A stretch of 32,046 nt of DNA from an archaeon (GTDB taxonomy: Archaea; Nanobdellota; Nanobdellia; Pacearchaeales; GW2011-AR1): the NCBI GenBank assembly GCA_030679115.1, contig JAUXTS010000021.1:1-32046 (forward strand), given 5' to 3'. A model generated the notes under the pieces. The model ran no database searches, had not been told where the DNA came from, and worked only from the letters and a program-made list of their open reading frames with translations. This document shows, in pieces, positions 10,728 to 22,348 of this stretch. Made by a program: the position numbers and the translations under genes. Numbering within the stretch: position 1 is the stretch's first letter; each line of letters starts with the position of its first letter.

Positions 10728-10820
10728 ACATTATCCATTTCTTTCATATTTATAAATCTTAATAAAAGCCGTGTCTAACAATCCGATAGGATAAAAGTAG
10801 TTTCTTTGATGCATACAAAC

Positions 10821-10952
10821 GCGCCCGATAGGATTCCTGAAGGTTCGTAAGAACCGAGGGGACAGAGAATTTGAAAAATTCTCTGGATGTCAAGAACTTT
10901 AGTTCTTGATCACCTCGAAAATCGAAGATTTTCTTAGTGTTCAAATCCAGAC
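10821..10952. mobile_element. Putative hairpin-array mini-element 3' of tRNA-Arg
   Basis: Four consecutive perfect hairpins (10842-10855 GGTTC-GTAA-GAACC; 10864-10884; 10890-10909; 10917-10933), bounded by GCGCCCGATAGGATT (10821) and GCACCCGATAGGATT (10953). Confidence 0.5.
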
Positions 10953-11594: not shown

Positions 11595-11671
11595 GGATGA
11601 TTCGAACGCTTCAATCATGTAAATGTTGAAGCTCCCGCGGACTTTGTCTGCGAGGACTTTCGAATCATGAA
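11595..11671. mobile_element. Putative hairpin mini-element 3' of tRNA-Leu(CAA)
   Basis: GATTCGAA...TTCGAATC outer stem, GCTTCAA(T)CAT-GTAA-ATGTTGAAGC hairpin (11608-11632), CGCGGAC-TTT-GTCTGCG hairpin; near-identical copy at 19750. Confidence 0.5.
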
Positions 11672-11672
11672 T

Positions 11673-11755
11673 GCGGGAAGGAGGATTCGAACCTCCGTAA
11701 GCACTAAGCTAGTAGCTCTTGAGGCTACCCCGTTTGACCGCTCCGGCATCCCCGC
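11673..11755 (-). tRNA. tRNA-Leu(CAA)
   Basis: Class II tRNA with long variable arm; GTAGC CTCAAGA GCTAC; acceptor GCGGGGA/TTCCCGC. Confidence 0.93.
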
Positions 11756-11809
11756 AAATCGCAGATTTGTGGGTACTGGGATTAATTCTCCCAATCCCTC
11801 AACCAGCGC
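11756..11809 (-). repeat. Conserved tRNA-Leu 5' leader, copy 1
   Basis: aaatcgcagatttgtgggtactgggattaattctcccaatccctcaacc; near-identical copies at 19969 and 26500. Confidence 0.85.
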
Positions 11810-11846
11810 AATAAATCTAAATCAAGAGTGTTTTAAAGGTTATTGT
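11810..11846. repeat. 37-bp perfect direct repeat, copy 1
   Basis: aataaatctaaatcaagagtgttttaaaggttattgt; identical to 12607..12643. Confidence 0.95.
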
Positions 11847-12450: not shown

Positions 12451-12606
12451 AATAACTAGCCAAATATCTCATTTATAAACTTTTCTATATGTTACTACTA
12501 ATAAATTAGTAAAATTATCTTTTAACGCTTAATCTTAAAAAATTTATCTTCCTAATCTTGATTTTATTACTCCGAATTTTATGATAATTTTTAAGATACT
12601 TAATAT

Positions 12607-12643
12607 AATAAATCTAAATCAAGAGTGTTTTAAAGGTTATTGT
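12607..12643. repeat. 37-bp perfect direct repeat, copy 2
   Basis: Identical to 11810..11846. Confidence 0.95.
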
Positions 12644-12694
12644 CGCATCAATTATCACAACAATTCTTTTAAACTTATTTTATTGCAGAGGGGA

Positions 12695-13321
12695 ATGAAA
12701 ACCTTCTCAAATGAACAATTAACAAGAATAGTCTTAGCAAGGACTCCCCCAAGAGTTTTAGCAAAAGATGAAAACTATGCATTTTATAATCTTAACATGT
12801 ATGGGAATAAAGTTCTCACTTGGCAAACTCCAGAAGAAATTTTTAGGAGCAATTGGAAGGGAGATGTATGTATCCGTTCAAATAAAGGAATTGCAAGAGG
12901 AAGCACAAAATACAATATTCCTCAAGAAAAGCTAATGGAAATTATAGATGCAGAATTTGAATCTAATGGGATGCCTCTAAACACACTAACATTTAATCAA
13001 TCAATGCCTGATGAACATCTATCTATCCAGGGAGAAGTCATGCGCAATCTTGATGGGCTTTGCTTGACATATTCTAAAATAAAAAAACCAATGAATCTCG
13101 CACTCAAGGAAAAAACAGAAAGAGCCAAAGGGTTTAATGCACATCTTATTCTCAAACAGGAATTATGGCCTGCAAGTCTAAATGAATTGGAGAGACTGCT
13201 TGATAGATTTGGAGGCGATTTGACAACCTCTTCTTCTGTCGTTGAATTCAGTGCCTATGATATTGCAGTTGGAGATTCTCCAGGAAGAAATACAGTCATC
13301 TGGGAAGTCAGGGATTATTGA
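12695..13321 (+). CDS. Hypothetical protein (~208 aa)
   Basis: ORF; start placed at MKTFSNEQL after GAGGGGA, because the longer ORF start runs through the 37-bp repeat. Confidence 0.7.
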   Translation: MKTFSNEQLTRIVLARTPPRVLAKDENYAFYNLNMYGNKVLTWQTPEEIFRSNWKGDVCIRSNKGIARGSTKYNIPQEKLMEIIDAEFESNGMPLNTLTFNQSMPDEHLSIQGEVMRNLDGLCLTYSKIKKPMNLALKEKTERAKGFNAHLILKQELWPASLNELERLLDRFGGDLTTSSSVVEFSAYDIAVGDSPGRNTVIWEVRDY

Positions 13322-14654: not shown

Positions 14655-14773
14655 AGGCCCATAGTATAACCGCAGAATATCACATTCGCAATGTGGGGAT
14701 CCGAGTTCAATTCACTTCGACATGTGAATGTTGAAGTTGTCCACGGAACTTGTTCTGTAGCATCGGTGGGCCC
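14655..14773 (+). tRNA. tRNA-Ala(CGC)-like gene interrupted in the T arm (possible intron or disrupted tRNA)
   Basis: GGCCCA/TGGGCC acceptor, TCACA TTCGCAA TGTGG anticodon arm, CCGAGTTCAATTC then ~50 nt structured insertion then TCGG; 1:72 would be A-C and the D-loop GG is not canonical. Confidence 0.55.
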
Positions 14774-14814
14774 ATCTTCAAAATCTATATAAACGCTTTT
14801 CCCCATTTCTTAAT

Positions 14815-19746: not shown

Positions 19747-19861
19747 AATGCGGGAAGGAGGATTTGAACGCTTCAATCATGTAAATGTTGAAGCTCCCGC
19801 GGACTTTGTCTGCGTGGACTTTCGAATCCTTGAACATAAATGCGGGAAGGAGGATTCGAAC
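19747..19861. mobile_element. Putative hairpin mini-element 3' of tRNA-Leu(TAA), with duplicated tRNA 3' end
   Basis: aatgcgggaaggaggattYgaac at 19747-19769 and 19839-19861 (23 bp, one mismatch, spacing 92 bp); between them the same two hairpins as at 11600. Confidence 0.6.
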
Positions 19862-19968
19862 CTCCGTAGGCACTAAGCACACAGGATTTCTTCAATCCTG
19901 ACTTAAATCTTCCTAATGGAAGAACGACTTCTTAAGTCCTGCCCGTTTGACCACTCCGGAATCCCCGC
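19842..19968 (-). tRNA. tRNA-Leu(TAA) with 43-nt intron at 37/38 (intron 19888..19930)
   Basis: CAGGACTTAAG|AAGTCG...TTGAAGAA|ATCCTG; removing 43 nt restores stem CAGGA/TCCTG and loop CTTAAGA. Confidence 0.88.
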
Positions 19969-20020
19969 AAATAGCAGATTTGTGGGTACTGGGATTAAAT
20001 CTCCCAATCCCTCAACCCGC
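19969..20020 (-). repeat. Conserved tRNA-Leu 5' leader, copy 2
   Basis: aaatagcagatttgtgggtactgggattaaatctcccaatccctcaacc. Confidence 0.85.
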
Positions 20021-20370: not shown

Positions 20371-21192
20371 ATGACAAAAGAAATAGACGCATTAAAAGCT
20401 GAATTAAAATTAAGAGGATTCTCTCCACTCACAGTTAGAAATTATTCTTTCTTTGCTGAAAAATTTTTACAAAAAACAAATAAAACAACTGAAGAATTAA
20501 ATCAGCAGGATGTGAAATTATATCTTTCAAGTTTATTTGATTCAAAATCCAAGAATACAGTAATGCTTGCCGCCGCCGCCCTTAAATTTTTATATATAGA
20601 AGTTTTAAAAAAAGATTTTGAGCAGATACGAATGCCTAAAAAAGATAATCCTCTGCCTGAAGTTCTCATAAAAGATGAAGTGAGAAAATTAATTGATTCT
20701 GCAGATACAAATAAATCAAGACTAATTATTTCTCTCCTTTATTCAACTGGGTTGAGAGTTTCCGAACTTGTAAATTTAAAAATTGAAGACTTAAATCTTA
20801 CTGAAAAGACAGGATGGGTTCGCCGCGGAAAAGGAGCAAAAGACAGAATGTTTGTCATATCAGAATCTCTATCTAAGGAATTAGAAAATTATTTTAAAGA
20901 TAAAGGAAATATCTATGTTTTTTCAAAAGATAAACCCCTTACAACAAGAAATATCCAAAAGATTGTAAAGAATGCAAGAATTCGGGCAGGATTAAATAAA
21001 AGAGTAACTCCCCACACTTTGAGGCATTCTTTCGCAACTCATTTATTGGAGCAGGGAACAGATATAAGAATGATACAAATTTTATTAGGTCATTCAAGTT
21101 TGAATACGACAACTGTTTATACTCATGTCTCAACAGACCAGATAAAGAAAGTCAAAAATCCATTCGATGCTCTAAATTCCCCGCAAGTTTAA
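20371..21192 (+). CDS. xerA: Tyrosine recombinase, XerA-like
   Basis: STGLRVSELVNLK, RGKGAKDR, HTLRHSFATHLLEQGTDIRMIQILLGHSS, TTVYTHVS: R-K-HxxR-H-Y residues. Confidence 0.92.
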   Translation: MTKEIDALKAELKLRGFSPLTVRNYSFFAEKFLQKTNKTTEELNQQDVKLYLSSLFDSKSKNTVMLAAAALKFLYIEVLKKDFEQIRMPKKDNPLPEVLIKDEVRKLIDSADTNKSRLIISLLYSTGLRVSELVNLKIEDLNLTEKTGWVRRGKGAKDRMFVISESLSKELENYFKDKGNIYVFSKDKPLTTRNIQKIVKNARIRAGLNKRVTPHTLRHSFATHLLEQGTDIRMIQILLGHSSLNTTTVYTHVSTDQIKKVKNPFDALNSPQV

Positions 21193-21217: not shown

Positions 21218-22348
21218 GTGAAAAAGTGGGATAAGTTTGAAGTAAATTATTTGAAAGAGAATTATGAAACTAAAACTAATCGTGAAATTTCTAAAGTAAT
21301 AACCCGCAGTAATAAGGCATTAATTTATATGGCTATGAAATTAGGATTAAAAAAGACTCAGGAAACTATTTGTCAAGCTCGTAGACATAAATCATTTGAA
21401 ATTACAAAAGAACTTTTAGAGAAGATGTATCTCCGTGATAAAAAGTCTATAAGGAAGATTGCTCTTGAATTAAAATTTGGAAAGAATACTATTGCGCATT
21501 ATTTAAATAAATTTAATATGCCTCTTAGAACAACTTCTGAAGCAAATAAAAGCTTTTATAAAAAAGGAGGAAAGGTATGGAAAGAAGGTTTAACAAAAAA
21601 GACTGATAAGCGTATAGAAAAAGCCACAGAAAAAATGAAAGAAAGCTGGAACAAAAAAAGAGCAATTAGATTTTCAATTATAGAAAAAAAGTTTGATATC
21701 CCAATAAAAGATTTGATAGGAAATCTTTATTGGAATGATAAGTTAAATCAAGAAGAGATTGCTAAAAAATTAGAATTATCCAGAGTAATAATCATAAATT
21801 TAATGAAATTTCACAATATTAAAAAAAGACTCAATTATCAACATATTTCTAGTCTAAAAGGTGAAAATCATTCGATGTATGGGAAAAAATGGGAAGAAAC
21901 TTATGGTATAGAAGAAGCTAAAAAATTAAAGGCAGAGCTTTCTATTCGAAGTAGAACTAATATAATCAAAAGATTATCTAATAATGAGATGCCATTTATA
22001 AATACTAAAATTGAAAAGAAACTTGCAAAAGCAATGGAAAATAAGGGGATTAAATTCATACATCAATATCCTATAGATAATAAATTTGTATGCGATTTTG
22101 CAATACCTGAATTTAAGATAATGATAGAATGCGACGGAGATTATTGGCACGCAAATCCTAGAATATATAATAAAAATAATCTTAATCAGATACAAAAAAG
22201 AAAAGTACAAACTGATAAATTCAAAGATATTTATCTCTCAAAAAAAGGCTGGAAAGTTTTACGATTTTTTGAATCAGATATAAAGAAATCTATTGCAAAT
22301 TGCATAAGTTCAATTGAAAAGACTATAAACTCTTCTCAAATAATTTGA
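21218..22348 (+). CDS. Homing-endonuclease-like protein (HTH repeats, NUMOD3-like motif, Vsr/EDxHD-type nuclease); GTG start
   Basis: Repeated HTH-like segments, SMYGKKWEETYGIEEAKKLKAELS (NUMOD3-like), C-terminal TKIEKKLAKAMENKGIKFIHQYPIDNKFVCDFAIPEFKIMIECDGDYWH...KGWKVLRFFESDI. Confidence 0.82.
   Translation: MKKWDKFEVNYLKENYETKTNREISKVITRSNKALIYMAMKLGLKKTQETICQARRHKSFEITKELLEKMYLRDKKSIRKIALELKFGKNTIAHYLNKFNMPLRTTSEANKSFYKKGGKVWKEGLTKKTDKRIEKATEKMKESWNKKRAIRFSIIEKKFDIPIKDLIGNLYWNDKLNQEEIAKKLELSRVIIINLMKFHNIKKRLNYQHISSLKGENHSMYGKKWEETYGIEEAKKLKAELSIRSRTNIIKRLSNNEMPFINTKIEKKLAKAMENKGIKFIHQYPIDNKFVCDFAIPEFKIMIECDGDYWHANPRIYNKNNLNQIQKRKVQTDKFKDIYLSKKGWKVLRFFESDIKKSIANCISSIEKTINSSQII

Follow-up and report, generated by a model that had tools for sequence, protein, structure and literature searches.

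The tRNA-Ala(CGC)-like gene on the archaeal contig studied here (JAUXTS010000021.1 of assembly GCA_030679115.1, the whole 32,046 nucleotides of which we call the window) is split by exactly 49 nt, and this insert is very probably a copy of a small, non-coding and presumably non-autonomous mobile element of Pacearchaeota, E, which has inserted into the gene and most likely killed it. A sequence-only reading had already described a structured insertion of about 50 nt in the T arm, and the insertion is real: read directly, the locus runs AGGCCCATAGTATAACCGCAGAATATCACATTCGCAATGTGGGGATCCGAGTTCAATTC [49 nt] TCGGTGGGCCCA, with the gene at 14655-14773 and the insert at 14714-14762 (Table 1). Folding the insert gives two hairpins (-15.3 kcal/mol), reproducing the proposed 10-bp stem with its GUGA loop (GTGA in the DNA) at 14714-14737 and placing the second hairpin, which had also been noticed, at 14738-14762 with a core of 6-7 bp.

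Table 1. Coordinates of E, its hairpins and the associated tRNA features in the window.
Feature	Position	Strand	Basis or content
tRNA-Arg(CCT) trailer: second 3'-end copy and other hairpins	10813..10949	-	direct repeat 10813/10945
E copy downstream of, and antisense to, tRNA-Leu(CAA)	11608..11656	+	first covariance model, E-value 1.4e-9
tRNA-Leu(CAA), intact, upstream of E at 11608	11671..11756	-	ARAGORN/Rfam
tRNA-Ala(CGC)-like gene, 5' part	14655..14713	+	acceptor 5', D arm, anticodon arm, T stem 5', T loop, first T stem 3' base
E insert, 49 nt	14714..14762	+	first covariance model, 53.6 bits, E-value 2.2e-11; second model, E-value 4.1e-10
E hairpin 1	14714..14737	+	ACTTCGACAT-GTGA-ATGTTGAAGT; fold and covariation
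E hairpin 2	14738..14762	+	TGTCCACGGAACTTGTTCTGTAGCA; fold and covariation
tRNA-Ala(CGC)-like gene, 3' end	14763..14774	+	TCGG (T stem), TGGGCCC (acceptor strand), discriminator A at 14774
Second 3'-end copy of intron-containing tRNA-Leu	19750..19769	-	GTTCAAATCCTCCTTCCCGC on the - strand
E copy downstream of, and antisense to, intron-containing tRNA-Leu	19770..19818	+	first covariance model, E-value 2.7e-9
tRNA-Leu, 128 nt with intron, upstream of E at 19770	19841..19968	-	Rfam tRNA, 42.1 bits; anticodon TAA by eye

Neither ARAGORN nor Rfam calls a tRNA in the interrupted gene, and at a permissive threshold Rfam matches no family at the split locus; when the 49 nt are omitted, ARAGORN calls a tRNA-Ala(CGC) of 71 nt. 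Intact 71-nt tRNA-Ala(CGC) genes carrying G3:U70 are present in three relatives (G026, G027, and G209), and the window gene is colinear with them once the 49 nt are left out. The Ala(CGC) identity assigned from the sequence was therefore right, but relatives have intact orthologues and the window gene is a degenerate one: it differs from the G026 orthologue at 15 positions, position 1 is A (leaving A1:C72 mismatched), position 70 is C (so that G3-C70 replaces G3:U70), and one D-loop G is C. The A1:C72 mismatch and the missing G3:U70 had been pointed out correctly, and a weak D-loop GG had been noted as well. The gene has neither the G3:U70 identity pair nor the continuous T arm of a functional tRNA-Ala. 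The 7:66 acceptor pair and the anticodon stem are also altered relative to G026 and mostly still paired, compensated changes which suggest that constraint acted on the gene until recently, if not to the present, and that it could still be in use. Taken together, the call made without the insert, the intact orthologues, and the lost identity features point to a once normal Ala(CGC) tRNA with signs of decay. GCG codons can be read by a UGC anticodon, which makes the Ala(CGC) isoacceptor plausibly dispensable; a tRNA-Ala(TGC) gene was not found in the organism's own assembly, which is incomplete.

The insert belongs to a dispersed family. E is a unit of about 49-53 nt with two hairpins and fixed ends (ACTT...), of which covariance models find about 18 copies in the 699-kb metagenome-assembled genome (MAG) that contains the window. 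The kinship suspected between the insertion and elements near 11600 and 19760 holds, CATGTRAATGTTGAAG occurring three times in the window (11616, 14721, and 19778); what had been called trailer elements are indeed related, and are more precisely copies antisense to the two tRNA-Leu genes that precede them, the copy at 11608 forming a three-way-junction fold with flanking GATTCGAAC/TTTCGAATC. The 16-base core, with three exact matches in the window, has more near matches across the genome, many of them 30-80 nt downstream of tRNA genes. A first covariance model, built from six copies with one T shifted by hand in two of the six rows, finds 18 places in the genome at E-values below 0.01, and a second model made only from unedited hits of the first gives the same picture, the E-values from the two models reaching down to 5e-17; this number of matches at such E-values indicates a family rather than chance resemblance. 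Both hairpins covary: two-sided changes occur at 15 of 20 pairs among 17 copies and at 18 of 20 among 71 distinct copies, where 96.6% of cells are paired compared with 30-46% for slid pairings, and although both alignments were fitted to the model structure and so favour it, the slid controls and the counts of two-sided changes far exceed that bias. Hairpin 2 has the form NNN-C-stem...stem-GA-NNN, the outer triplets of which covary (TAC/GTA, CAC/GTG, TCC/GGA, TGC/GCA, CGC/GCG). The left flanks of E include AAAT, ATTC, AATT, GATT, and others, with no constant tetranucleotide. As in small structured mobile repeats, there are many dispersed copies with common ends and a conserved fold, and there are filled and empty sites.

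Several forms and settings of E depart from this outline. Around position 1808 of locus L050 (C49:22868) and in L060 (C19:10474-10606), a module of about 60 nt with hairpins of its own (CTTCAAGATTCTATRAATCTTGACAGTGCTCAA...) stands between hairpins 1 and 2, and the module-bearing copies on C19 follow a protein gene and have a 34-bp direct repeat on their flanks. A variant second hairpin, CACTAAGAA...TTCTTTCAG, precedes the copied 3' end in tRNA-Lys, Ile, and Glu trailers (L002, L006, L012, and L044), often with no recognisable hairpin 1. In G022, E lies on the strand opposite to a 23S rRNA gene, 9 nt past its 3' end (L074, 1501-1553).

The ends of the element are clearest in two RNase P RNA genes, which contain E in opposite orientations. 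The G193 gene reads CAAGAATT[51 nt]GTAATGAATTC compared with an uninterrupted CAAGAATTTTTATGAATTC in G190. The G190 gene in turn holds an antisense 50-nt E with left flank ACG (in full, GATGAAACG) and right flank GGCG, and G191 has none, its empty site reading GATGAAACGGGCG. Target duplication is absent at both sites, the junctions having been read by eye, with the program's G190/G191 alignment awkwardly gapped. These clean insertions in both orientations indicate that E is a distinct unit whose ends are fixed and which enters RNA genes either way.

At tRNA genes the arrangement is more elaborate. E nearly always lies close to where T loop meets T stem in an additional copy of that tRNA's 3' end, situated downstream, and the tRNA itself is intact; along the tRNA strand one meets the intact tRNA, a spacer, usually an antisense copy of the T arm, often a copy of the T loop, E in either orientation (23 copies with the tRNA strand and 22 opposite), and finally the second tRNA 3' end. 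Among loci fetched from other genomes, the downstream copy is present at 33 of 37 tRNAs with E and at 5 of 27 without detected E, an association within a set fetched mostly for E rather than a census. In the window's own genome, a 3'-end copy lies 65-165 nt downstream of at least 14 of 34 tRNAs by a strict test, and of more when two mismatches are allowed. The copied end matches its own tRNA, as seen for Gly(GCC), the unusual T loop of which (GAGTCCGATTC) recurs in the Gly(GCC) trailer. In 40 of 75 copies E is touched by an exact direct repeat of 12 bp or more, which none of 1500 shuffles reproduces; the repeats range from 12 to 44 bp, with clear examples in G057 (25 bp) and G074 (44 bp). Inverted repeats around E show enrichment at tRNA copies, beating all shuffles in 10 of 44, as against 2 of 28 elsewhere, about the chance level, so we claim no general rule for the non-tRNA copies. 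Differences between orthologous copies at Ser-GGA in G189 and G190 preserve pairing, which could reflect host-level selection on E rather than dead insertions. At a tRNA-Ile locus of G190, for which an empty site was sought, the relative G192 likewise has a hairpin trailer.

Some neighbouring loci extend this description. At five tRNA loci of G190 (L108-L112, with L113 of G189 noted alongside), the unit made of the 3'-end copy and E is repeated in tandem, with exactly two copies at each; longer arrays may possibly have been collapsed in assembly. Downstream of the intact tRNA-Ala(CGC) genes at L148 (G027) and L150 (G048), their own 3' end recurs at distances of 115 and 96 nt; at L150 the interval between tRNA and copy holds two hairpins with the C/GA pattern, although the model detects no E there. 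In the window, tRNA-Arg(CCT) has a 3'-end copy 118 nt downstream with one mismatch, and its trailer probably represents a diverged version of this layout. A 91-nt block (11717-11807 and 19930-20020) is common to the two tRNA-Leu genes at 89% identity and begins far ahead of the tRNA 5' end; tRNA-Leu(TAG) on contig C49 (L030) has a similar block in front of it, and the block may be a leader, structured or promoter-like, that tRNA-Leu genes share. A perfect 37-bp direct repeat links the region upstream of tRNA-Leu(CAA) (11810-11846) with the neighbourhood of the start of an ORF at 12581-13321 (12607-12643). Near the E-bearing tRNA-Leu lie an integrase-family gene (20371-21192) and then, at 21218-22348, a gene for a DUF559/Vsr-like endonuclease; nothing in the evidence ties either of them to E.

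The window Ala(CGC) gene differs from this pattern in having E in the gene body and no spare copy of its 3' end. The missing spare copy and the decay (A1:C72, no G3:U70) together suggest that E most likely killed this tRNA, so that the locus would be a disrupted and now dead gene. The two kinds of locus may share one process. E would move as a folded single strand through a putative enzyme, and a hit in the T arm would be lethal unless the 3' end were duplicated, leaving survivors that carry a spare; a survivor needs an uninterrupted copy, and with a spare 3' end downstream the upstream gene stays whole. The duplication might arise by template switching during replication, which at hairpins would be expected to yield both direct and inverted target copies. 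Where the tRNA was dispensable, as Ala(CGC) may have been, the insert could have stayed in the gene body while the gene decayed to a pseudogene; alternatively, a spare copy once present in the window could have been lost by recombination between the two T-loop repeats. We consider it a tentative idea, with the balance against it, that E and the copied 3' end form one tRNA-targeting archaeal mobile system, performing or provoking duplication of the target's 3' end on insertion and possibly moving as folded RNA or single-stranded DNA. If true, E would spread through a large fraction of a genome's tRNA genes and still leave its essential target functional, a mechanism so far undescribed.

No mobilising enzyme was found: RVT_1 and Y1_Tnp each go undetected in some E-rich genomes. 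RVT_1 is present in 75 of 186 genomes of the family, including the window's own (G000), and was not detected in the E-rich G081 nor in G190, G189, and G029, all incomplete MAGs. Y1_Tnp (PF01797) is present in 73 of the 186, with no match in G000 (82% complete) or G081 (62% complete). The two obvious partner enzymes, reverse transcriptase and Y1 transposase, thus occur in some genomes with E but go undetected in several that are rich in it.

E is patchily distributed. Of 186 genomes in the GTDB family to which the window belongs, 36 have it, each with between 1 and 18 copies; in a class-wide sample it occurs in 19 of 378 genomes, 17 of them in that family, and is rare outside it. All genomes compared are MAGs, and among them no difference in presence or absence of E was seen within one species. 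An exact pattern scan of GTDB genomes returned 12 records: seven Pacearchaeota, one Nanoarchaeota, two further archaea, one Flammeovirgaceae, and one Acidobacteria MAG, the two single bacterial matches being compatible with chance. The host of the window is accordingly most probably one of the Pacearchaeota, an assignment drawn from the genomes that share E with it rather than from a marker-gene tree. The same scan of IMG/VR, bearing on a viral origin, gave zero matches.

The sequence-only reading had left open whether the insertion is a T-arm intron or a disruption of the tRNA, and the evidence favours disruption, by a family dispersed at tRNAs, in intergenic regions, and in RNase P RNA. Non-canonical introns cut out by the splicing endonuclease are known in archaea at positions such as 59/60 in the T arm (PMC4090602), and the insert resembles them in its T-arm position and in leaving a good tRNA when exactly excised. 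The expected splice-site motif, a 4-bp helix between two 3-nt bulges (PMC4090602), fails at the junctions: only one cut restores the tRNA, and there 3 of 4 pairs form in the central helix, 2 of 4 in the exon helix, and 0 of 4 in the intron helix. The intron reading also leaves unexplained why the same sequence also occurs antisense to tRNAs, in intergenic regions, and within RNase P RNA in both orientations, and we reject it as very improbable. It is scarcely more credible that the window tRNA functions with E retained as an expanded T arm. Several stems are kept through compensated changes and RNase P RNA appears to tolerate E, but G3:U70 is lost, A1:C72 is mismatched, E parts the T loop from the T stem, and other tRNAs instead keep an intact upstream copy; a tRNA with E between T loop and T stem is unlikely to work.

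Other explanations bear on the trailers as a whole. The hairpins and copied 3' end could serve a host function, for example in tRNA 3' processing or termination, the Ala locus being a collapsed form; the many tRNAs of the genome with a 3'-end copy downstream and the structure-keeping changes between orthologous copies would fit this. We think it unlikely given the patchy occurrence of E (36 of 186 genomes of the family) and its presence in RNase P RNA and intergenic regions, mostly with no 3'-end copy or direct repeat. Less probable still are relics of integration at tRNA 3' ends by a casposase (Cas1) or a tyrosine recombinase. Casposons also target tRNA 3' ends, with T-loop sequence near the insertion point and a target duplication that the direct repeats resemble, and the window has an integrase-family gene. 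The Aciduliprofundum boonei casposase, however, reads TCAAATC near tRNA-Pro about 8 bp upstream of its site (PMC6614799), whereas E abuts the T loop; its repeats vary from 12 to 44 bp and are absent at the RNase P sites, compared with a 14-15-bp duplication for casposons; and at about 50 nt E has no cargo and, in the copies inspected, hairpin ends only, with no terminal inverted repeats.

Insertion of a mobile element therefore remains our preferred reading, and it would account for the odd tRNA through damage done by hairpin elements, a family present in DPANN archaea. More broadly, a spare 3' end would let tRNA genes live with insertions aimed at the arm that is most conserved in them, and tRNAs that annotation tools miss, or that have odd trailers, would have an explanation in genomes with E. 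The question of what mobilises a 50-nt element with no gene of its own becomes approachable. Our literature searches, the coverage of which excluded most subscription journals and preprints, returned no description of E elements or of their tRNA focus.

Among known systems, elements derived from IS200/IS605 that move as single strands share with E hairpins at both ends and, at the RNase P sites, insertion with no target duplication; at tRNA sites E is accompanied by direct repeats. E differs from them in its lack of a constant left tetranucleotide and in the lack of a detected Y1 transposase in G000 and G081. Rickettsia palindromic elements, REP/BIME sequences, and bacterial MITE-like repeats (PMC3733652; PMC2229807) are likewise tens of nucleotides long, hairpin-forming, non-coding, dispersed, and tolerated in genes, whereas E is archaeal, has two covarying hairpins and fixed ends (ACTT...), and is concentrated where the T loop of a tRNA meets the T stem, together with a copied 3' end. 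A relationship to the GTAG- and CGTC-tagged families is not established. By analogy, E appears to behave most like the small palindromic repeats of bacteria (PMC3733652), with a focus on tRNA genes in addition.
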